Shown one piece after another: positions 9,108 to 31,525 of a stretch of DNA of 35,251 bases. The notes below the pieces were generated by a model, which saw only the letters and a list, made by a program, of their open reading frames with translations, did no database searches and was not told the DNA's origin. How positions within the stretch are numbered: the stretch's first letter is position 1; every line of letters begins with the position of its first letter. The stretch is from a virus. The stretch covers positions 1 to 35,251 of IMG/VR virus record IMGVR_UViG_3300035670_000743, one strand, 5' to 3'. Position numbers and translations under genes: made by a program.

Positions 9108-9760
9108 AACTTATTACAGAATATACCGAGAATGATGTTCAGTGCATCGTCGAGAAGAAAGAAAACGGAGAAAAGAACTTCGTTATCGAAGGTATTTTCG
9201 CACAGGCCGAAGGTAAGAATAGAAACGGACGTATCTATCCTAGAACAGTAATGGAAAATGCTGTGAATAGATATGTTGATTCGCAAGTTAAAACTGGAAG
9301 AGCAGTTGGGGAATTAAACCATCCAGATGGTCCAACTGTTAATCTAGATAAGGTATCCCATCTCATTACCGATCTTCGTATGGAAGGTAATAATGTGATG
9401 GGTAAAGCACGCATTCTGAATACTCCAATGGGTAAAATAGTTCAAGGTTTACTAGAGGGTGGTGTTCAACTGGGTGTTTCAACTCGTGGTATGGGAAGTC
9501 TCGAACAGAGAAATGGTGTTATGTATGTCAAAGACGATTTCATGTTGAATACCGTCGACATCGTCCAAGATCCATCCGCACCTCAAGCTTTCGTCAATGG
9601 AATTATGGAAGGTGTAGAATGGGTATGGAATAATGGTATTATCGAAGCTCGAGAAATTGAAAGAATTGAGACTGAAATTAGAAAAACTCCGAGAAAAGAC
9701 CTCTATGAGGCACAGACCCGTGAGTTCAAGAATTTCCTCTCGTTACTGAAAACCAAATAG
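9104..9760 (+). CDS. 21: Prohead maturation protease gp21
   Basis: The 218-residue product (T4 gp21: 212) is a herpesvirus-protease-like serine protease that cleaves scaffold, core and capsid proteins after assembly. The catalytic His is in ELNHPDGP (about H73) and the Ser in LGVSTRGMGS (about S126), in the order and spacing expected. The GKNRNGRIYPRTVMENAV segment is a strong family marker. The gene starts inside the 3' end of the preceding small gene (ATGA overlap) and is followed by the scaffold gene, its main substrate. Confidence 0.94.
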   Translation: MKLITEYTENDVQCIVEKKENGEKNFVIEGIFAQAEGKNRNGRIYPRTVMENAVNRYVDSQVKTGRAVGELNHPDGPTVNLDKVSHLITDLRMEGNNVMGKARILNTPMGKIVQGLLEGGVQLGVSTRGMGSLEQRNGVMYVKDDFMLNTVDIVQDPSAPQAFVNGIMEGVEWVWNNGIIEAREIERIETEIRKTPRKDLYEAQTREFKNFLSLLKTK

Positions 9761-9769
9761 GAGAGTCAC

Positions 9770-10708
9770 ATGACTGATCAAATTAAAGGACAGGATGTTG
9801 AGCTCGATGATGACGAGAATGTTGTTGAAGCTCACGATCCTAAAACTGCCGAAGAACAGTCTGTTGCTTCTGTAAAAAGCGCTGAAGGCGCAGGTAAAAC
9901 TGCAACCAAGCGCAAGGGTGATAAAAGCAATTCCGATGCAATGGCTAAAGGAAAAGCTGGCGACCCAGAGAAGCACACCGAAGACTATGACTTCTCAGAT
10001 GATTTAGATGCTCTAATCTCTGAAGAAGCTACACTGTCAGAGGCGTTCAAAGGTAAAGCCGCAATTATCTTCGAAGCAGCGATCAAATCAAAGCTAAGCG
10101 AAGAAGTTGCACGTCTCGAAGAAAATTATGCAACCCAACTTCAGGAAGAAGTCGATTCATTCAAGGCCGATATGGTTGAGAAGGTAGACGGATACCTGAA
10201 CTACGTAGTTGAAAATTGGATGAAAGAAAACGAAGTTGCGATCCACAACGGTCTTCGTGCCGAAATCGCAGAAGAGTTTATGGATAAGCTACAGGCACTC
10301 TTCGTTGAGTCCTACATCGCTGTTCCAGATTCCAAAGTAGACCTAGTTGACGATCTGGCCGAACAGAAAGAAGCTCTTGAAGCTACTCTGAACGAACAGA
10401 CCGAAGCAATGATCGCAATGAAAGAAGAGCTAGAAGGTTATAAGCGTTACGAAGTTATCCGTGAAGCAGCTCGTGGTCTTGCAGAAACCGAAGTTGAAAA
10501 GCTTGTTAAGCTTTCAGAAGATCTTGATTTCGAAAGCGAAGAAATCTTTGCTGACAAAGTTAAGACTATCAAAGAAGCTTACTTCAAAAAGCCAGCTAAA
10601 ACTTCAAAATCAATTGTAGAATCAGCCGAAGAAACCGAATCAGAAGAAGTTGAAATCTCTGGTCCGATGGCTGCCTACGTCACCGCTCTAAGAAAATCAA
10701 ATAAGTAA
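9770..10708 (+). CDS. 22: Prohead scaffold (core) protein gp22
   Basis: The 312-residue product has the composition of the T4 major scaffold protein (269): a disordered acidic N-terminus followed by long Glu/Lys-rich coiled-coil helices (for example EALEATLNEQTEAMIAMKEE) and short (L/I)-x-E sites suitable for gp21. It is needed to shape the prohead and is degraded and removed before packaging. GGAG precedes the ATG. Position between 21 and 23 is diagnostic. Confidence 0.88.
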   Translation: MTDQIKGQDVELDDDENVVEAHDPKTAEEQSVASVKSAEGAGKTATKRKGDKSNSDAMAKGKAGDPEKHTEDYDFSDDLDALISEEATLSEAFKGKAAIIFEAAIKSKLSEEVARLEENYATQLQEEVDSFKADMVEKVDGYLNYVVENWMKENEVAIHNGLRAEIAEEFMDKLQALFVESYIAVPDSKVDLVDDLAEQKEALEATLNEQTEAMIAMKEELEGYKRYEVIREAARGLAETEVEKLVKLSEDLDFESEEIFADKVKTIKEAYFKKPAKTSKSIVESAEETESEEVEISGPMAAYVTALRKSNK

Positions 10709-14331: not shown

Positions 14332-15231
14332 TTATTTATGTCGAATTGTATCTAGAGTAGTACAGTGAGGTCCACCTAAAAGATATCTTGCATATGGAAT
14401 ATTAACAGGTTCTACAGTTATACCCATATTTCTAAGTTTATCAATAAAAATTGTTTGGGTAGAATCTACTGCTAAAACCCCGGGTTGAATAACTAAAACA
14501 TTCATTCCAACCCATTTAGATGCTATATTTAATTCATGTTTATAGTCTATAATATCTTCCTCGGTTACCCAGATTTTATCCCATTTCTTTAAAAATTCCG
14601 GTAGGTGATCTTCTGAACAACGTCCAGCATTTAATAAAACTTTGCCTTCTTCAATAGGTATAATCGTGGAATCTAAGTGTGATCCTGAATAAAGATTTTG
14701 TAAAATATGAACTCTGTATTCACTTCCTAGTGTATCTTGTAACCATCTGCCTCCGCCTATAGTACCTGTATGACTCACAAGATATAAAATATCCTGATTA
14801 CATCTAATAATATTAGCAGCATCGAAAATAATATCTTTATCATCTAAAGGGGCATAAATAAAATTACTATCTTCTGGAAATAAAGGTTTTATATAATCCC
14901 ATTCTTTCCTTCTATATTCAAATAACGTAGGAGTAAAAATTACTTTATCCCCAATTACTGCGATTGCATCTCTCGTAGAATATGCACCGAACCCATTTAT
15001 GGTTGAATAATCTTGGTACTTCGGTCTTAATACTTCCACACCATAGGATTGCATCATATTAGAATATTCTTCTAAACCTTGCTCCGTTTCTTCTAATACA
15101 TAACTTGGAACGGGTTCCCCAGAAGGTAATAACTCCCATTTTGCACCTACTGCTACCGGCCAATACATACCTTTAGCAGTACCAAGGATAACTTGTTTTA
15201 AATTATCCCATTCATTCGCACTATAAACCAT
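14332..15231 (-). CDS. Glycine amidinotransferase-like enzyme
   Basis: The 299-residue product belongs to the guanidino-group-modifying (pentein) family. The whole catalytic set is visible: Asp in FDAAN (D137), His in SGSHLDS (H185) and the nucleophilic Cys in LLGGPHCTTLDTIR (C290), plus the conserved STRDA (about 86-90). The GGPHC-T-LD ending is typical of amidinotransferases (GATM, StrB1) rather than arginine deiminases. It would move the amidino group of arginine to an unknown amine. The AT-rich gene lies on the minus strand between uvsY and uvsW, which are normally neighbours, and has its own late-like promoter, so it looks acquired. AGGAG precedes the start. Confidence 0.85.
   Translation of the reverse strand: MVYSANEWDNLKQVILGTAKGMYWPVAVGAKWELLPSGEPVPSYVLEETEQGLEEYSNMMQSYGVEVLRPKYQDYSTINGFGAYSTRDAIAVIGDKVIFTPTLFEYRRKEWDYIKPLFPEDSNFIYAPLDDKDIIFDAANIIRCNQDILYLVSHTGTIGGGRWLQDTLGSEYRVHILQNLYSGSHLDSTIIPIEEGKVLLNAGRCSEDHLPEFLKKWDKIWVTEEDIIDYKHELNIASKWVGMNVLVIQPGVLAVDSTQTIFIDKLRNMGITVEPVNIPYARYLLGGPHCTTLDTIRHK
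14333..14340 (-). promoter_or_regulatory. Late-type promoter (CATAAATA) for the 113-residue gene
   Basis: On the minus strand, CATAAATA lies about 20 bases before the ATG at 14313, overlapping the stop region of the amidinotransferase gene. It is the same variant as before genes 13 and 18. Confidence 0.45.
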
Positions 15232-15251
15232 TTATTTTCTCCTATGTTAAT

Positions 15252-15259
15252 CATTTATA
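15252..15259 (-). promoter_or_regulatory. Late-type promoter (TATAAATG) for the amidinotransferase gene
   Basis: On the minus strand, TATAAATG lies about 21 bases before the ATG at 15231, with AGGAG in between. It differs from the late consensus only in the last base. Confidence 0.45.
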
Positions 15260-15268
15260 TATAATTCT

Positions 15269-16771
15269 ATGGACACATTAAAAGTAAAAAATAAAAATCA
15301 CTCTGTTATGCACATTGGATGTGACTTTGGAATCGCAAACGAACTGAGCGAATTCTTTTCGTTTTTCGTGCCCGGCTACAAGTTTATGCCTTTGTATAAG
15401 AATCGTGTTTGGGATGGAAAGATTCGTCTTTTTAATATCAACACGATGGAACTTCCCGTGGGTCTATTTCCATTCTTAAAAGAATTTGCTAAGCCTAGAA
15501 ACTATAAGATTGAAGTAGAACATAATAACTTCTATGGAAGACCGGATGCATATAATGATATTAACCCCGAAGAGATAAAGGAGTTTATCGATGGGCTTGA
15601 ATTGCAATCCAGAGGTAAACCAATCGACATCAGAGATTACCAGTTCGATGCAGTATGCGAAGGACTTCATAGAAAAAGGGCGGTACTCATCTCCCCTACA
15701 GGATCTGGGAAATCACTTATTATCTATACCTTGGTCCAAAGATACCTTTGTAGTCTACGGCAGAAAGACAGGAAAGTCCTTATTATTGTACCAACAACTT
15801 CGTTGGTCGAACAGATGTACAACGACTTCGCCGATTACGGTATGCCGGTCGAAGACGTCGCCCACAGAATTTATTCTGGACGAGATAAAGACACAGAAAA
15901 AGATATCATCATTTCAACTTGGCAGTCGATCTATAAGTTACCGCCAAAGTGGTTTGAACAATTTGGTGCTGTCGTTGGTGACGAATGTCACGGGTTCAAA
16001 TCTAAGTCTTTGACTACAATTATGGATAAGTGTAAAGAGGCTGAATATCGTTGGGGTACGACCGGTACACTCGACGGTTCGCAGACTCATGAGCTTGTTC
16101 TTCAAGGACTTTTTGGAAAGATATATAATGTAACAACGACGAAAAAACTTCAGGATGAAGACACTCTTTCTAAGTTAAAGATTACTATCTTACTCTTAAA
16201 GCATCCTGAAGAAGTTCGTAAAAACTGGGGAAAGCAAGATTACCAATCCGAATTGGACTACATTGTTCGAAATGATTCTCGTAATAAGCTTATTACTAAT
16301 CTTGCTCTCGACTTAAACGGAAATACTCTTGTGCTGTTTAACTTTGTTGACAAACATGGTAAACCCCTATATGATATGATCAGGGATAAAGCACATGAGA
16401 ATAGAAAAGTTTTCTTTGTATCTGGAGATACTGATACAAGTGATCGCGAAGCAATCCGTAAGATCGTAGAGACACAGAAAAATGCGATTATTGTTGCGTC
16501 ACTTGGTACTTTCTCTACTGGTATTAACATCCGCAATCTCCACAACATTATCTTTGCCTCCCCGAGTAAATCCCAGATTAGGGTATTACAATCAATCGGA
16601 AGAGGACTAAGAAAGTCAGACGATGGATCTATAGCAAGCCTATACGATATCGCTGATGATCTTCACTGGAAAGGCCGAAAGAACTATACACTAGAACACT
16701 CATTAGAAAGGGTTAAGATGTATGTTAAGCAAGAGTTCGAGTACAAGATTTACGAGGTTGATTTAAAATGA
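15269..16771 (+). CDS. uvsW: RNA-DNA and DNA helicase UvsW
   Basis: The 500-residue product matches T4 UvsW (about 503), a superfamily 2 helicase that unwinds branched DNA and R-loops and shifts replication from origin to recombination mode. It has the N-terminal domain ending in WDGKIRLFN, Walker A SPTGSGKS (about 141-148), a DECH box (D238-H241), motif III GTTGTLDG and motif VI SIGRGLRKSDDG. No clear Shine-Dalgarno precedes the ATG, but the N-terminus aligns with T4 UvsW, so the start is accepted. Its stop overlaps the next start (ATGA). Confidence 0.94.
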   Translation: MDTLKVKNKNHSVMHIGCDFGIANELSEFFSFFVPGYKFMPLYKNRVWDGKIRLFNINTMELPVGLFPFLKEFAKPRNYKIEVEHNNFYGRPDAYNDINPEEIKEFIDGLELQSRGKPIDIRDYQFDAVCEGLHRKRAVLISPTGSGKSLIIYTLVQRYLCSLRQKDRKVLIIVPTTSLVEQMYNDFADYGMPVEDVAHRIYSGRDKDTEKDIIISTWQSIYKLPPKWFEQFGAVVGDECHGFKSKSLTTIMDKCKEAEYRWGTTGTLDGSQTHELVLQGLFGKIYNVTTTKKLQDEDTLSKLKITILLLKHPEEVRKNWGKQDYQSELDYIVRNDSRNKLITNLALDLNGNTLVLFNFVDKHGKPLYDMIRDKAHENRKVFFVSGDTDTSDREAIRKIVETQKNAIIVASLGTFSTGINIRNLHNIIFASPSKSQIRVLQSIGRGLRKSDDGSIASLYDIADDLHWKGRKNYTLEHSLERVKMYVKQEFEYKIYEVDLK

Positions 16772-24577: not shown

Positions 24578-24971
24578 TAACGTCCATTGGACACCACAGG
24601 ACATGCTAGAAGTTATCCTGGATGAACCAGATGATTTTCTAAAGGTGCGCGAGACGCTAACTCGTATTGGGGTAGCTTCTAGAAAAGATAAAAAACTATT
24701 TCAATCTTGCCATATACTACATAAGCAGGGAAGATATTTTATCGTTCATTTCAAGGAGCTATTCCTTCTTGACGGCAAGAAATCCAATCTAGAGATGAAT
24801 GATGTACAGCGTAGAAACACGATCGCTACGTTGCTTAGTGATTGGGGATTAATCAAACTTGCAGCAGGTGGTAATTTAGATTGCGCACCTCTAAGACAAA
24901 TTAAGATTATCCCATTCAAAGAAAAAGACGAATGGGAGCTTTGTCCGAAGTATAATATTGGAAATAAGTAA
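24561..24971 (+). CDS. regA: Translational repressor RegA
   Basis: The 136-residue product (T4 RegA: 122) binds early mRNAs near their start codons and blocks ribosome entry. ASRKDKKLFQSCHILHKQGR and YFIVHFKELFLLDGK are the core RNA-binding segments, and RRNTIATLLSDWGLIKL is a further marker. It starts with GTG, 17 bases inside gene 62, after AAAAAGG. Its stop overlaps the methyltransferase ATG (TAATG), and a near-copy of its last 12 bases occurs at 25520-25531. Confidence 0.9.
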   Translation: MVEENNNVHWTPQDMLEVILDEPDDFLKVRETLTRIGVASRKDKKLFQSCHILHKQGRYFIVHFKELFLLDGKKSNLEMNDVQRRNTIATLLSDWGLIKLAAGGNLDCAPLRQIKIIPFKEKDEWELCPKYNIGNK

Positions 24972-25495
24972 TGATTGAAAAAATATATGAACCTCTAGAT
25001 TCAGATAAAAGTTATTGGCAAAATAAAAACAATTCTGAAGAATGGGGTTCATATTATTATAAAAATTTAACTCTGTATCTCGAAAAAATAAAAGATACTT
25101 TACCCCCAGGTGCCCTATATGAATACGGATGTGGGGACGGACAAATGGTTATTTTCTTAAAAAAACTTTTTCCCGAAAGAAAGGTAGTTGGGGTTGATAT
25201 TCCCAATTACAATAAAATAAAAGAAATAAAAGAAATAGATGTAAGAAATATAGCTCTTTATGAGGAATTTCAGGAACCAATTGCATTAGCTATCAATGAT
25301 ATGTCGGGTTGGGATCTAACCCCCATCTCTAAGCAAAGCGCATATTGTCATGCTATGTTTAATTTAACCTCCGGTGGCTATTATATAGAATCTAGAAGAC
25401 ATCGATATACGCCAAATTTCATCTATAATTCAGAGAAATTAAAGGAATTAGAAATGATAGCACCAGGTCTAATAGTTTTTAAGAAGTTATCTTAA
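24971..25495 (+). CDS. Class I SAM-dependent methyltransferase-like protein
   Basis: The 174-residue product shows motif I as YEYGCGDGQ (about 50-58) and an acidic motif II at VVGVDIPN, so it should bind S-adenosylmethionine. No DNA-methylase catalytic motif (DPPY or PC) is seen, so the substrate is probably a small molecule or protein. The gene is visibly more AT-rich than regA and gene 62 (many AAA, ATA and TTA codons), and starts on the regA stop. It resembles in composition the cassettes at 13972-15231 and 26935-28983. Confidence 0.72.
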   Translation: MIEKIYEPLDSDKSYWQNKNNSEEWGSYYYKNLTLYLEKIKDTLPPGALYEYGCGDGQMVIFLKKLFPERKVVGVDIPNYNKIKEIKEIDVRNIALYEEFQEPIALAINDMSGWDLTPISKQSAYCHAMFNLTSGGYYIESRRHRYTPNFIYNSEKLKELEMIAPGLIVFKKLS

Positions 25496-25606: not shown

Positions 25607-26080
25607 ATGACAGGCGTACAGCAACTATTTCCCCGTGGCTCATTTATCGGTTTCGATCATCTATTGAATGAGCTTGATCATGTAGCAAAGCATGCTAACG
25701 ATCATTATCCCCCACACAACATTATCAAAACCGGCGAGACAGATTATCTGATCGAACTTGCTGTAGCGGGATTCTCAAGGGAGGAACTTTCAATCGAGGT
25801 CAAAGACCGTACATTGACAGTTACGGGCGATCACGTAAGCAGAGGTAGAGAGTTTATTCATCGTGGAATTTCTACGAAGAAGTTTAAACGCACCTTTAGG
25901 CTGTCTGAACACGTACACGTAATCGGAGCAGATCTTAAGGATGGCATTCTGTCAGTTGAACTGAAGTATGTAATCCCAGAAGAATTGCGTCCTCGTAAAA
26001 TCGAAATCGGTCATCACGAGGAAACAAATGACACACATAGCACTAGTAATAAGCAACTACTTACAGAGTCCGATCAGTGA
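25607..26080 (+). CDS. Small heat-shock protein (Hsp20 family)
   Basis: The 157-residue product carries an alpha-crystallin domain: AVAGFSREELSIEVKDRTLT, the loop with REFIHRGIS, FKRTFRL and ADLKDGILSVEL, then the C-terminal K-I-E-I anchor. Such chaperones are a marker of cyanophage-type T4 phages. The ATG at 25607 follows GAGGAG and is inside the transcript from the TATAAATA at 25537-25544; an in-frame ATG at 25532 would add 25 residues but lies upstream of that promoter. It overlaps the next gene by 53 bases in another frame. Confidence 0.9.
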   Translation: MTGVQQLFPRGSFIGFDHLLNELDHVAKHANDHYPPHNIIKTGETDYLIELAVAGFSREELSIEVKDRTLTVTGDHVSRGREFIHRGISTKKFKRTFRLSEHVHVIGADLKDGILSVELKYVIPEELRPRKIEIGHHEETNDTHSTSNKQLLTESDQ

Positions 26081-26264
26081 AGTACTGAACGCTATCTTTA
26101 AACTCTATTCAACCGCGCGCAGCAACTATGCTAAGCACCAGATGTACAGAAGCACCCTAAAAGAACTTGGCAGACTTACTGACTACCAGCTTCATGATAT
26201 GGGTCTTAGCCGTTACGATCTACATGCTATAGCAAGACAAACTGCTTATGGACGTACAAAATAA
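26028..26264 (+). CDS. DUF1127-type small protein
   Basis: A 78-residue basic product whose LKELGRLTDYQLHDMGLSRYDL (about 44-65) is the DUF1127 (YjiS-like) pattern common in alphaproteobacteria. Some host members bind RNA and influence phosphate and carbon metabolism; no function is known in phages. GAGG (26018-26021) lies six bases before the ATG, so the 53-base overlap with hsp20 is likely real. The N-terminal 35 residues are unlike host members. It suggests a gene taken from an alphaproteobacterial host. Confidence 0.75.
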   Translation: MTHIALVISNYLQSPISEVLNAIFKLYSTARSNYAKHQMYRSTLKELGRLTDYQLHDMGLSRYDLHAIARQTAYGRTK

Positions 26265-26676: not shown

Positions 26677-26705
26677 CCTCTGTGCTCAGCATGGAGGTAT
26701 TTTTT
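26672..26705 (+). terminator. Hairpin with T-run whose 3' arm contains the next ribosome-binding site
   Basis: AAATACCTC (26672-26680) pairs with GAGGTATTT (26694-26702); the loop can form a small inner TGC/GCA pairing, and six T end at 26705. For transcripts from upstream it acts as a terminator and hides GGAGG (26693-26697). The next ATG is at 26706. Confidence 0.75.
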
Positions 26706-26948
26706 ATGTCGGATAAAAAAGAAACTGATAATCTAAATCTAAGCGAATTCGATTATATCATGGCTGCAATTGCTGACTATTGTATGACTCAGAATATAGA
26801 CAAAGAGATGTTCTGGAATATAATTAATCATGTTGATGATGGATATGAATTTATGACGGCCATGGAAGCTCAGTGTCACCTGATGGATGTAGTTGAAGAC
26901 CATAATATGATGCGAAGATACCACGGAGATAAAAGTGAGCCATTTTAA
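26706..26948 (+). CDS. Small acidic protein of unknown function
   Basis: An 80-residue product (MSDKKETDNLNLSEFDYIMA...), acidic and helical, Met-rich (YEFMTAMEAQCHLMDVVEDH). I do not recognise a family. The ATG at 26706 is chosen because GGAGG ends nine bases before it; an in-frame ATG at 26682 would start in the hairpin loop. Its stop lies 14 bases inside the hydroxylase gene. Late expression is likely from the nested promoter/hairpin. Confidence 0.65.
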   Translation: MSDKKETDNLNLSEFDYIMAAIADYCMTQNIDKEMFWNIINHVDDGYEFMTAMEAQCHLMDVVEDHNMMRRYHGDKSEPF

Positions 26949-27510
26949 GGAAGTATTAGATCTACCTGCATTTCCGGGACTGCTAGATCATTTAACCCCA
27001 GTAATGATAGAATGTCTGAATACTTACGGACAGATCGGTTTAAACACTGTTAAGGGATTTGAACATGATTATACTATGGCGAACGGTAGTCTTGTAAAGG
27101 ATTGGGGTAATTTAAAAATTACCACGAATGAAGCCGTTACAAAATATGAAATACCTAATAAAACCGAAAGATTACATGAGCGGGATTTTACCGTCTTATG
27201 CGATATATTTAAGGGTACGGTTTTCGAAGAAATCTATAATATCTTAGATGAGAAATACATTTTGGGTAGGATTAGGTTATTTAAATCTGAGCCTAAAACT
27301 TGTTTAACGTGGCATATCGACGAAGGGCTGCCGAGACTTCATTATCCCATAAAAACCCAAGATGGGTGTTTCATGGTTATTGATAATGAAGTAAAACATC
27401 TCGGACAGGATAAATGGTGGATGGCAGACACCTCTAAGCCACACACTGCATTTAATGCAAGTCGGGAAAGTAGAATTCACTTAGTGGCAGTAATAAGGGA
27501 TATAAAATAA
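26935..27510 (+). CDS. Aspartyl/asparaginyl beta-hydroxylase-like 2-oxoglutarate oxygenase
   Basis: The 191-residue product shows the non-haem iron triad in order: WHIDEG (H127, D129), SKPHTAFN (H170), and a 2-oxoglutarate-binding Arg in SRIHL (R180). The PRLHYPIKT segment between them is typical of the Asp/Asn hydroxylase (PF05118-like) branch. It starts with GTG after GGAG, 14 bases inside the previous gene. It opens an AT-rich three-gene cassette. Substrate unknown: protein side chains and free amino acids are both known in the wider family. Confidence 0.8.
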   Translation: MSHFKEVLDLPAFPGLLDHLTPVMIECLNTYGQIGLNTVKGFEHDYTMANGSLVKDWGNLKITTNEAVTKYEIPNKTERLHERDFTVLCDIFKGTVFEEIYNILDEKYILGRIRLFKSEPKTCLTWHIDEGLPRLHYPIKTQDGCFMVIDNEVKHLGQDKWWMADTSKPHTAFNASRESRIHLVAVIRDIK

Positions 27511-27515
27511 AGTTA

Positions 27516-28346
27516 ATGGATAAGCCTCCTATTATAATTAGTCCTCCGAGGACTAGAAGTACTATACTATATGACATCATGGAGCCCTATGCTTTAAAGA
27601 AATTCGGCCTTTTGCCTTTAAAAAATCATAGTGAACTTTTTTTATTTCAAAGTAAAAATAACGTATATGAAGATCTGAAAACGGGTGATAAAAACTCAGC
27701 TCAATTATACCCTATCGCATCAGAAACATCCCTTGATATTCATTTTATACACCCTCCGGTTTATTCTAGTATCGAAGAAGCTAATCTTAGTAAATTAAAA
27801 TTATTAGAATCAGAAAAAAGTAAGGGCAAGAACTATTGGATAAAAACTACCTTAGAAGTGGTTTATAACCCTAAGGAAATATCAGACTTTTTTTCTGATC
27901 GTAGATTTGTTTTGACCGATAGAAAAGATATATCTGAGTTTCTATTGAGCACGATATTTGCTCTAAAGACTAGAATTTTTCATGCTAGAGAAAATAATAT
28001 AGATCTGTATAAAGATCTGATTTCCACAGGTGTGATGGTGGATGAAAAAGATTTAGGAAGAATGGACTGGGTTTTTAACCTTTTGTTAGAATTTAAAAAT
28101 TTAAGAAAATATATATCTGATCGATATGATTATATAAATGTCTTTTATGAAGATACTAATACTAAAGAAAAACTTTTTAATAAGATAAATGATATTTTTT
28201 GCACTGATGACTGGAGAAGTTATTATAAGCCTCTAGATTTCCACCCAATAAAAATTGAAAAAGATTATAAGGAAATTATTATTAATTATAACGAGATAAG
28301 AGATTATCTCGTGAGAAAATCGGAAGAATATTATAATGATCCTTGA
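27516..28346 (+). CDS. Sulfotransferase-like protein
   Basis: The 276-residue product begins IIISPPRTRSTIL, close to the 5'-phosphosulfate-binding loop of PAPS-dependent sulfotransferases (P11-R12-T13-R14-S15-T16), and later has FVLTDRKDISEFLLS with Arg136 and Ser140 in the place of the 3'-phosphate-binding motif. Overall identity to known families cannot be judged by eye, so the fold call is moderate. It is AT-rich, lacks a strong ribosome-binding site and follows the hydroxylase after five bases; its end overlaps the PP-loop gene by 11 bases. Confidence 0.7.
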   Translation: MDKPPIIISPPRTRSTILYDIMEPYALKKFGLLPLKNHSELFLFQSKNNVYEDLKTGDKNSAQLYPIASETSLDIHFIHPPVYSSIEEANLSKLKLLESEKSKGKNYWIKTTLEVVYNPKEISDFFSDRRFVLTDRKDISEFLLSTIFALKTRIFHARENNIDLYKDLISTGVMVDEKDLGRMDWVFNLLLEFKNLRKYISDRYDYINVFYEDTNTKEKLFNKINDIFCTDDWRSYYKPLDFHPIKIEKDYKEIIINYNEIRDYLVRKSEEYYNDP

Positions 28347-28983
28347 ATTTAATGATATAAAAGTAGATTTCTTTGAGACCTTTCCCAGAGAAGTGAAAAA
28401 TATAGCATTGAATCTTTCTGGCGGGGCGGATTCTGCTTTAATATTATTCCTATTAGTGGAAATGATAAAAGAAAGGAATCAATCTGATGTTAGAATTTAT
28501 CCGTTCCATGGGGTAGAGTCTGAGTTTAGTGCTGATATTTGTGCTAAAATAATTCAGCATATAAATGAAATTACCAATACTAAATTTATAGAGCCCCTAT
28601 ACCTTTATGATTACCCCAAACCATTAACTGTTACCAAAACAGAAGCTCTAAAACTTGCGTTAGAAGATTTTAGAAATACTAATAACACCTTTTATACTAT
28701 AAGGGGTATTAGTCAGGGGATGGATGATTTAGAAAGGCCCGAACTTCCTGGCGATATAGTCGGAAGAAATCTAATCGACCTTTCTTTAAAATATCCCCAT
28801 ACTCTACCATGGGCCACCGTGAATAAAAAATTCATAGCAGATCAATATAAAAAATTCAATTTACAACATCTTTCTACTATTACAAACAGTTGTATAGCTA
28901 GTGCAACGTCCCCGTGTCGAAAGTGTTGGTGGTGCAAAGAAAGATATTGGGCTTTTGGATCATATGATGGGGGTATACAATAG
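28336..28983 (+). CDS. PP-loop ATPase, QueC-like
   Basis: The 215-residue product has an ATP-pyrophosphatase PP-loop SGGADSA (28-34) and a C-terminal zinc-type cluster C186-x7-C194-x2-C197-x2-C200 followed by an ERYWAFG segment, the ending seen in QueC (7-cyano-7-deazaguanine synthase). The QueC mid-protein GYPDC motif is not visible, so the substrate may differ; PAPS-reductase-like and asparagine-synthase-like PP-loops are alternatives. No other queuosine gene is in the window. The -35 box of the gene 43 promoter lies in its last codons. Confidence 0.75.
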   Translation: MILEFNDIKVDFFETFPREVKNIALNLSGGADSALILFLLVEMIKERNQSDVRIYPFHGVESEFSADICAKIIQHINEITNTKFIEPLYLYDYPKPLTVTKTEALKLALEDFRNTNNTFYTIRGISQGMDDLERPELPGDIVGRNLIDLSLKYPHTLPWATVNKKFIADQYKKFNLQHLSTITNSCIASATSPCRKCWWCKERYWAFGSYDGGIQ

Positions 28984-29023: not shown

Positions 29024-31525
29024 ATGTCTTTTTACACCAACGTCGGCCGGTACGGCAACCAAATCCTTTATCGGGGTTATACCGATAACGGTACACCTAT
29101 CACACAGAAATACAAGTTCTCGCCTACCCTCTTTGTTCCCAACAATACGGGCAAAGATACAGGTTGGTCCACTATGGAAGGTCAGTCTGTTGCACCTATA
29201 GAATTCGACACCATGGGCGAAGCACGTGACTTCATGCTTCAGTATGAAGACGTAGTCGGATTTAAGTTCTGGGGTAATACGAACTACATCCACCAGTTCA
29301 TCACCCATAAGTTTCCGGGTGATATCAAATTCGATAAGTCGTTCGTCAACGTGGCAAATATCGATATCGAAGTTCACTCTGATGCGGGTTTCCCTACACC
29401 AGAAGAAGCACTGCATCCAATCACCGCTATTACTCTTAAGACTAGCCGTAGCAATGTCTACCACGTCTGGGGATTGAAGGATTGGGATATTACCAAATCC
29501 GAGCATAAGAATCTGCTCATCCAGTATCATAAATGTGAATCCGAGGTAGAACTACTCGTAAAGTTTCTAACGTTCTGGAAGAACGACTATCCGGATGCTA
29601 TCACTGGATGGAACATGCGATTCTTCGATATGCCTTACATCATCAATCGCATTACCCGACTTGGTGATGAGAAAGCTGCTAAGTCGTTGTCACCGTGGGG
29701 TATGATCGAGAAGAAATCAGTCCAGTTTAAGAATAAGAACATGGACATGTATGACATCGTCGGCATCGCCCAGTTGGACTACTATGATCTATTCCAGAAG
29801 TTCGGCTATAGTTACGGTGCACAGGAATCCTATAAGCTAGACCACATTGCCTATGTGGTTCTGGGCGAACGTAAACTATCCTACGAAGAATACGGTAACC
29901 TCCGTAATCTGTACAATGAAAACCATCAGCTCTATATTGACTATAACATCAAAGACGTCGAGCTCGTGGAACGCATTGACCAAAAGATGGATCTGATTAC
30001 GCTTTGCCTTACGATTGCCTATAAGGCAGGCGTAAACTATTCTGACGCATTTGGTACTACCTCCATCTGGGATTCGATTGTGTATCGTGAGCTGAATGCG
30101 AAAAAGATTGCTATCCCACACCGTAAGCGATCGGAAAAGATCGACGTAAAGTTCGCGGGCGGGTACGTGAAGGAAGTTATTCCTGCCATGTATAAATGGG
30201 TGGTTAGCTTCGACCTTAACTCTCTGTATCCTAACATCATTGCTCAATGGAACATGTCTCCCGAGACTCTGTTGAAAGATCCTGGTGATATGCTTCGGTC
30301 TGGAGTAGAATATTATCTCGACAATAAGCCTACTCGTAACGATGTAGCTGTGGCGGCAAATGGTTCGATGTATAAGAAAGATTTCCAGGGCGTCATGCCT
30401 AAGATCATTGTGGACTACTACGCTGATCGTAAGGCTACTAAGAAAAAGATGCTTGCGGCGCAATCCGCTTATCAGAAGACACCGACTCCGGAGATTGAAC
30501 GAGAGATTAACCAACTGAACAACCGTCAGATGGCGATTAAGATTCTACTCAACAGCCTCTTCGGTGCGTTGGGCAATCAGTACTATCGCTACTTCGATCT
30601 GCGCATTGCGGAAGGCATTACCTTAACCGGTCAGTTTGTTATTAAATGGTGTGAACGCACGGTTAATGCTGAACTCAACAAGATCCTCGGTACGAACGAA
30701 GATTATGTTATCGCTATTGATACTGACTCTGTATATGTAAACTTTGCTAAGTTCGTCGAAAAGTTTAATCCCAAGGATCCGGTTGCGTTCCTGGCTGATG
30801 TATGTGAAAAGCACTTTAATCCGATGTTCGAACGTAGCATGGATGAACTGTTCCAACATATGTCTGCATTCGAACCGCGTATGGTTATGGAGCGCGAGGT
30901 CATTGCTGACCGTGGTATCTGGCAGGCAAAGAAGCGTTATATCCTCAATGTGCATAACTCCGAAGGTGTACAATACGCTGAACCGAAGATGAAGATTATG
31001 GGCATTGAAGCCATTAAGTCTTCGACTCCGGAGGTTGTGCGGGATAAGTTTAAGAAAGCATTTAAGCTTATGATCGCTGGTGATGAGAAAGGTACGCAGC
31101 GCTTTATCCAGAACTTTAAGACTGAGTTCCGTAATCTGCGTCCTGAGGATGCATCGTTCCCGCGCGGTGTTACTGAGATTAATAAGTGGAAAGATAAGCG
31201 TGACATCTATACGAAAGGCTGCCCGATCCACGTCCGGGCTGCACTGTTGTACAATCATTATCTAACGGATAAAGACCTTACAAATAAATACGAAACGATC
31301 AAGGAAGGCGAAAAGATTAAGTTTGCCTATCTGAAACTGCCGAATCCCATCAAAGAGAACGTGATTGCCTATCCGGATTACCTGCCGCCGGAGCTCAATC
31401 TCCACAAGTATATCGACTATGATAAGCAATTCGAAAAGACTTTCCTTGAGCCACTCGAACCTATTCTGCAAGCGATCGGCTGGCATTCAGAAGAGCGAGT
31501 GACTCTCGAGGATATTTTCGGTTGA
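29024..31525 (+). CDS. 43: DNA polymerase gp43 (family B)
   Basis: The 833-residue product is shorter than T4 gp43 (898) but complete. The proofreading exonuclease has IDIEVHS (D114, E116), [12 protein letters not shown] and [13 protein letters not shown]. The polymerase domain has DLNSLYPN (D397, SLYPN 400-404), [20 protein letters not shown] and DTDS (566-569). It replicates the genome with clamp gp45 and loader gp44/62. GGAGG precedes the ATG. The C-terminal tail should bind the clamp. Confidence 0.97.

Follow-up and report, generated by a model that had tools for sequence, protein, structure and literature searches.

A predicted oxygenase, a sulfotransferase-like protein and a QueC-fold enzyme encoded ahead of the polymerase gene of a T4-like phage

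Locus organisation and variable slots

The window analysed here, i.e. the whole 35,251-base virus record (IMG/VR IMGVR_UViG_3300035670_000743), carries T4-like structural and replication genes and comes from a T4-like phage of marine type. At the DNA level nothing among 50,697 phage records matched it. Three genes, referred to as OG, ST and PP, lie between a short conserved ORF and the gene for the phage DNA polymerase (PolB):

24971..25495, + strand: MT, methyltransferase-like, in the slot between RegA and HSP20; associated with the trio, not adjacent to it
26682..26948, + strand: conserved phage ORF of 88 aa, 5′ boundary of the variable slot
26935..27510, + strand: OG, Asp_Arg_Hydrox 2-oxoglutarate (2OG)/Fe(II) oxygenase, Cpz10-like; 191 aa, GTG start
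27516..28346, + strand: ST, divergent sulfotransferase-like protein (motifs and profile comparison); 276 aa
28336..28983, + strand: PP, predicted N-type ATP-pyrophosphatase of the QueC/Cap9 fold; 215 aa
28974..29002, + strand: promoter-like element of the polymerase gene, conserved in relatives
29024..31525, + strand: T4-like DNA polymerase (PolB), 3′ boundary of the variable slot

The preliminary description of this DNA placed three overlapping or nearly touching reading frames here, and these are present: the start of OG overlaps the end of the 88-aa ORF by 14 nt, 5 nt separate OG from ST, and the ST and PP frames overlap by 11 nt. All three are AT-rich, as it also noted (G+C content 37% for OG, 29% for ST and 35% for PP, compared with 45% for the polymerase gene and 40% for the whole window), and the trio is probably a recently assembled AT-rich cassette in a variable slot of a T4-like phage.

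Comparison with related loci (L numbers) revealed two variable slots between conserved genes, one from RegA to HSP20 and the other from the 88-aa ORF, which relatives have whether or not they carry the trio, to PolB. The second holds OG, ST or PP. The first holds MT in the window and JmjC_2 genes in L005 (1939-2541), L047 (3758-4330), L050 (3390-3920) and L053 (2041-2559), this alternation between MT-like and JmjC_2 (ribosomal-oxygenase type) genes being seen chiefly in PP-bearing lineages; in L007, MT is directly before RegA. Matches of MT to Pfam methyltransferases are weak and below cut-off, and its relatives were found only in loci with PP or OG. Beside the HSP20 gene of the window, a 78-aa ORF (26028-26264) is DUF1127-like by eye, a possible hint at an alphaproteobacterial host.

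Both slots also accommodate many unrelated genes in relatives, including a nitroreductase gene in L196, PD-(D/E)XK and JmjC genes in L047 and a Zeta-toxin-like gene in L200. OG or PP stands alone in the slot of L173, L123 and L002 (PP without OG in the last), and the G+C content of ST is unlike that of its neighbours. These features are consistent with the main rival to a joint function of the trio, namely that the pre-polymerase slot captured three enzymes independently, each with its own substrate. This explanation is possible, though we hold it only tentatively; the overlapping reading frames, which suggest translational coupling, argue against it, as do aspects of gene linkage described below.

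A promoter-like element (TATACA-17-TAGAAT with TG) is found upstream of PolB, in keeping with the earlier statement that the trio immediately precedes the promoter of the polymerase gene. The sequence of this element is shared by the window and L002, L003, L005, L007, L014, L023, L123, L173 and L196, whichever gene precedes PolB and with or without the trio. Such matches are common in shuffled sequence, so its weight rests on conservation and not on the match itself. The −35 box overlaps the 3′-terminal codons of whichever gene comes last in the slot, PP or OG, and the C-terminal DGG(I/V/L)Q of PP, conserved in polymerase-slot phages and absent from PP copies in radical-SAM arrays, may therefore reflect a constraint from the promoter DNA rather than the protein. 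L003 and L005 keep DGGIK though PP now sits elsewhere, a remnant that suggests relocation of PP.

Predicted activities of the three proteins

OG scores well above the Pfam cut-off for Asp_Arg_Hydrox (43.6 bits; cut-off 22.6), has the iron triad H127-x-D129...H170 and also keeps R134, H136 and R180. A profile of 10 phage OG sequences matches the caprazamycin beta-hydroxylase Cpz10 (PDB 7V4F/7V4M; E 3.5e-17 with 7v4f) over the C-terminal half. The Cpz10 centre comprises a His115/Asp117/His160 iron triad plus Arg170, His123 and His172 (PMC9814697), which correspond to OG H127, D129, H170, R180, H136 and H182, respectively. As all of these iron- and 2OG-associated residues are invariant in the 10 aligned sequences, OG is very likely an active 2OG oxygenase, strongly bearing out its original assignment to the Asp/Asn-hydroxylase type. 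L-proline cis-4-hydroxylase (4P7W) belongs to the same family, and the best solved relatives of OG act on amino-acid-type substrates, an aminoacyl-nucleoside in the case of Cpz10. However, OG aligns with Cpz10 and 4P7W only in its C-terminal half (profile positions 81-183) and its N-terminal part differs from theirs, so their substrates are not transferable to OG. Among named phages, OG matches a protein of Pelagibacter phage Mosig (E 1e-19), where the neighbouring genes are unrelated, and more weakly one of Limnohabitans phage DC33.

PP is barely above the Pfam QueC cut-off (22.6 bits; cut-off 22), although the same model matches all 14 of 14 PP relatives at E 0.01 or better. PP has an SGGxDS loop, K164, a C186...C194-C197-C200 cluster and a CWWCKERYWAF signature. 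The AlphaFold model from a 44-sequence alignment has a mean pLDDT of 92.7, and Foldseek returns Cap9 (type IV CBASS) first (E 1.3e-5). With VIA-align, Cap9 gives Z 14.3 (rmsd 2.8, 159 residues aligned), two QueC structures Z 14.3 and 13.4, and LarE Z 12.8, TilS-type and LarE structures scoring nearly as high as Cap9; Cap9 is also the best match of the 44-row alignment among PDB profiles. The ATP-pyrophosphatase fold with a QueC-like Cys cluster proposed from the first reading of the DNA is therefore strongly supported, but that reading missed how far PP departs from true QueC. SGGxDS is present in 44/44 relatives and the C-terminal Cys cluster in 43/44, with a first spacing of 7 in close relatives (C-x7-CxxCxxC) rather than the canonical 8 (Cx8CxxCxxC). 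Canonical QueC (7-cyano-7-deazaguanine synthase) is set apart from Cap9, QatC and others by YxQxHxxE, VPxRN, YPDC and Tyr189 (PMC13329287), and each of the three motifs is found in 0/44 PP relatives. Aligned with E. coli QueC, PP keeps the ATP loop, the conserved Lys and the Cys cluster, while the essential Tyr189 is replaced by Ile. Because the signature motifs and this Tyr are missing and the core motifs are retained, PP is predicted to preserve the ATP- and metal-binding core without the deazaguanine pocket.

A role as a phage QueC in 7-deazaguanine (preQ0-type) modification of DNA or tRNA, for which the Pfam matches and the known carriage of QueC by phages (BFVD matches) could be cited, is thus strongly disfavoured and highly improbable. 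No QueD or QueE gene was recognised in the neighbourhoods of the gene pairs, and canonical QueC/preQ0 function was rejected for PP.

In the Cap9 reaction an N-terminal glycine is coupled to a nucleobase acid, and a similar reaction has been proposed for QatC (PMC13279940, PMC13329287). By analogy, PP could link a small carboxylic acid, made or decorated by OG (and ST), to a protein of the phage or its host at the N-terminal end, so as to alter host takeover or counter host defence. PP shares the QueC fold, the SGGxDS loop, the conserved Lys and a four-Cys zinc-type cluster with both Cap9 and QatC, and Cap9, like PP a minimal-size version of that fold, is its best structural and profile match. 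Against such conjugation, the YxDC nucleobase-contact motif of Cap9 is absent from 44/44 relatives and its Y/FxQ(x)5E motif is present in just 1/44, the PP neighbours are OG, ST and PolB with no CD-NTase or QatB partner recognised among them, and the fold by itself fixes no acceptor, given the TilS-type and LarE scores. In comparison with QatC (~400 aa, with N- and C-terminal extensions), PP is a core of 215 aa and no QatA, B or D gene was recognised beside it; PADLOC reported a weak QueC match and nothing else. We regard Cap9/QatC-like conjugation as improbable. None of the gene clusters described in PMC13329287 equals the PP set.

At least 499 PP relatives were found in IMG/VR, while among 84,980 genomes of bacteria and archaea the same alignment identified three, one of them (L188) scoring just 18 bits with the PP profile; as the search patterns are biased towards the CWWCKER signature, more distant members in cells may have escaped detection. 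Two versions of PP gave no protein match among named phages at E 0.01. On these sequence comparisons PP appears to represent a virus-centred subfamily of the QueC fold, for which these searches revealed hardly any non-viral members. Tandem, often overlapping PP genes are seen in L056, L065, L066, L067, L071 and L106, possibly reflecting a heterodimer or two successive ligations.

ST, described beforehand as a PAPS-type sulfotransferase-like protein, has the motifs of Sulfotransfer_3/Sulfotransfer_1 enzymes in the expected order: a 5′-PSB-like SPPRTRSTIL, a 3′-PB-like R136...S145, and YED at 211-213. Unlike those families, it has PRTRST instead of the usual PRSGTT and falls below every Pfam cut-off. 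No convincing match was found by sequence in Pfam, PHROGs, NCBIfam or PDB, nor any protein match among named phages at E 0.01. Scanning viral contigs with ST alone yielded nothing, relatives emerging only via OG loci: two close ones (38% identity), each overlapping the OG gene that directly follows it. The family profile matched a 207-aa phage protein (E 9.6e-7, local ORF set), and iteration added a protein of L138 with weak Sulfotransfer_3 and Sulfotransfer_1 matches (19.5 bits with the Pfam sulfotransferase model, below the cut-off of 27); a further family scan gave no additional relatives. R12, K110, R136, S145 and Y211-E212-D213 are invariant across the seven members. When the seven-row alignment was compared with 25 bacterial sulfotransferase ORFs, hhalign gave a score of 42.9 (probability 72%) over a region covering R136/S145 and YED, compared with at most 14.6 for 100 column-shuffled controls, 13 for OG and 12 for PP; the three-row family alone was near noise (22.2; shuffled maximum 20.6). 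Searching PDB with the ST profile gave chance matches only, and the AlphaFold model from a three-row alignment has a pLDDT of 35.5. None of 49 related phage records contained a Sulfotransfer_3 match above cut-off, and by BLAST the sulfotransferase-like gene that follows PolB in L014 is not similar to ST. Motifs and profile comparison thus favour, with moderate confidence, identification of ST as a divergent sulfotransferase.

Gene linkage in related phages

The order OG-ST-PP was found in this record only, contrary to the co-occurrence in that order proposed at the outset, and the exact trio was rejected as a conserved operon. Pairs of its members do recur. OG is immediately followed by PP in L007, L014 (and its near-copies), L018 and L023, and PP by OG in L114 and L125. 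The closest relatives (L003, L005, L006 and L022) have OG before PolB and PP ~640 bp behind it. ST overlaps OG in L031 and L142, with the order (ST-OG) opposite to that of the window. In the record containing L142 (G022), all three families occur within ~7 kb in the order PP...ST-OG (PP 9146-9886, ST 14754-15668, OG 15652-16245), among radical-SAM, SDR-like and twitch-domain genes. Both of the other phages with ST-OG pairs have them embedded in radical-SAM arrays, and one of the two also has PP nearby; in many further phages OG directly follows a radical-SAM or SDR-like gene. This recurrence of OG-PP and ST-OG adjacency outside the pre-polymerase slot and in other orders argues against independent capture at a hotspot. 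Together, the pairwise links and the G022 set make the proposed short shared pathway plausible, although the exact order is not that of a conserved system and ST is seldom present, as an optional component of the gene set.

The arrays L270 (in G022) and L271 (in G009) are long, with radical-SAM and N-terminal twitch-domain radical-SAM genes (NF033640 over cut-off, 421 and 405 bits, respectively). They also contain oxygenase, sulfotransferase-like, SDR-like and B12-radical-SAM genes and in this look like a biosynthetic gene cluster within a phage. The radical-SAM gene directly upstream of ST-OG (L270, 13676-14827) has weak similarity to viperin (PADLOC pVip, E 3.3e-12; NCBIfam below cut-off). 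No radical-SAM genes were recognised in the 35-kb record studied here. Elsewhere in the window, on the minus strand (14332-15231; 299 aa, G+C content 34%), is a gene with weak, below-cut-off similarity to arginine deiminase/amidinotransferase, relatives of which recur in PP/OG/radical-SAM clusters (L106, L136, L100, L084, L186 and L029).

OG and PP also occur separately. PP is present in 27/50 OG-bearing records (missing from 23, many of which are fragments) compared with 6/50 records selected by polymerase, but this enrichment is confounded because record lengths differ; among records ≥20 kb, PP is found in 23/40 and 4/12, respectively (p 0.19), and the lack of significance in this length-matched comparison favours independent capture. 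Within the 50 polymerase-selected records, three have both genes, four OG only, three PP only and 40 neither (p 0.029). Six OG-PP pairs lie within 700 bp, compared with 1.7 expected under random placement (p 0.005), or five compared with 1.4 after removal of near-copies (p 0.01); at 4 kb there is no excess.

A comparison free of record length used 43 anchored loci in which the entire RegA-PolB interval is visible. MT is present in 8/16 PP-positive and 0/27 PP-negative loci, an OG or JmjC_2 oxygenase gene in 11/16 and 4/27, and any of MT, OG or JmjC_2 in 14/16 and 4/27, and in two of the four PP-negative exceptions (L005 and L006) PP is directly behind PolB. This association is strong and also argues against independent capture, though it lacks phylogenetic correction and is not independent of phylogeny: PP-positive loci, which mostly come from different searches than PP-negative ones, cluster on the polymerase tree, where six changes suffice to account for PP. 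Only five independent contrasts are available, none of which opposes the association and none of which can reach significance.

A candidate tailoring cassette

Since their families recur side by side in uncultured phages, the three enzymes probably make one modification jointly. On whether the trio is an accessory tailoring cassette acting on a single pathway intermediate, we consider the evidence evenly balanced. Catalysis, step order, substrate, product and benefit to the phage are all inferred here. OG, judging from its family, would hydroxylate an sp3 carbon of an amino-acid-like substrate. PP, judging from its fold, would, like QueC and Cap9, activate a carboxylate as an acyl-adenylate and hand the acyl group to an amine, using a substrate pocket different from that for 7-deazaguanine. 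ST would be a PAPS-type enzyme sulfating a hydroxyl, in this lineage probably the one made by OG; sulfation would be an optional step and the cassette mobile. An aminoacyl or peptidyl group seems a likelier shared intermediate than a DNA base. The broader proposal that T4-like phages of marine type have peptide- or protein-tailoring chemistry of their own, with the trio of the window hydroxylating, acylating or amidating, and sulfating one target, is speculative and on present evidence unlikely.

Nishimura 2017 (PMC5332604) lists 12 radical-SAM genes of a T4-like environmental phage genome as Fe-S proteins, and relatives of OG, PP and ST sit in radical-SAM/twitch arrays of this kind; the accessible part of that source does not describe linkage of oxygenase, QueC-like and sulfotransferase genes. 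Linkage of this QueC-like subfamily with 2OG oxygenases, a sulfotransferase and radical-SAM genes was likewise not described in the literature searched, which included few subscription papers, nor was an assay for phage-side QueC-fold chemistry found there. Each fold was already known; what appears new, against the literature searched, is the virus-centred QueC-like subfamily and its gene associations.

Protein modification by QueC-fold enzymes was recently demonstrated in immunity against phages. The existence of a large, essentially viral branch of this fold that apparently lacks a pocket for deazaguanine, and whose genes accompany those of oxygenases and radical-SAM arrays, suggests that phages have such chemistry as well. 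If the broader tailoring proposal is correct, the combination of a QueC-fold ligase with 2OG oxygenases, sulfotransferases and radical-SAM arrays would represent a modification pathway undescribed in viruses or cells. The trio of the window is a compact version that is directly expressible and testable.
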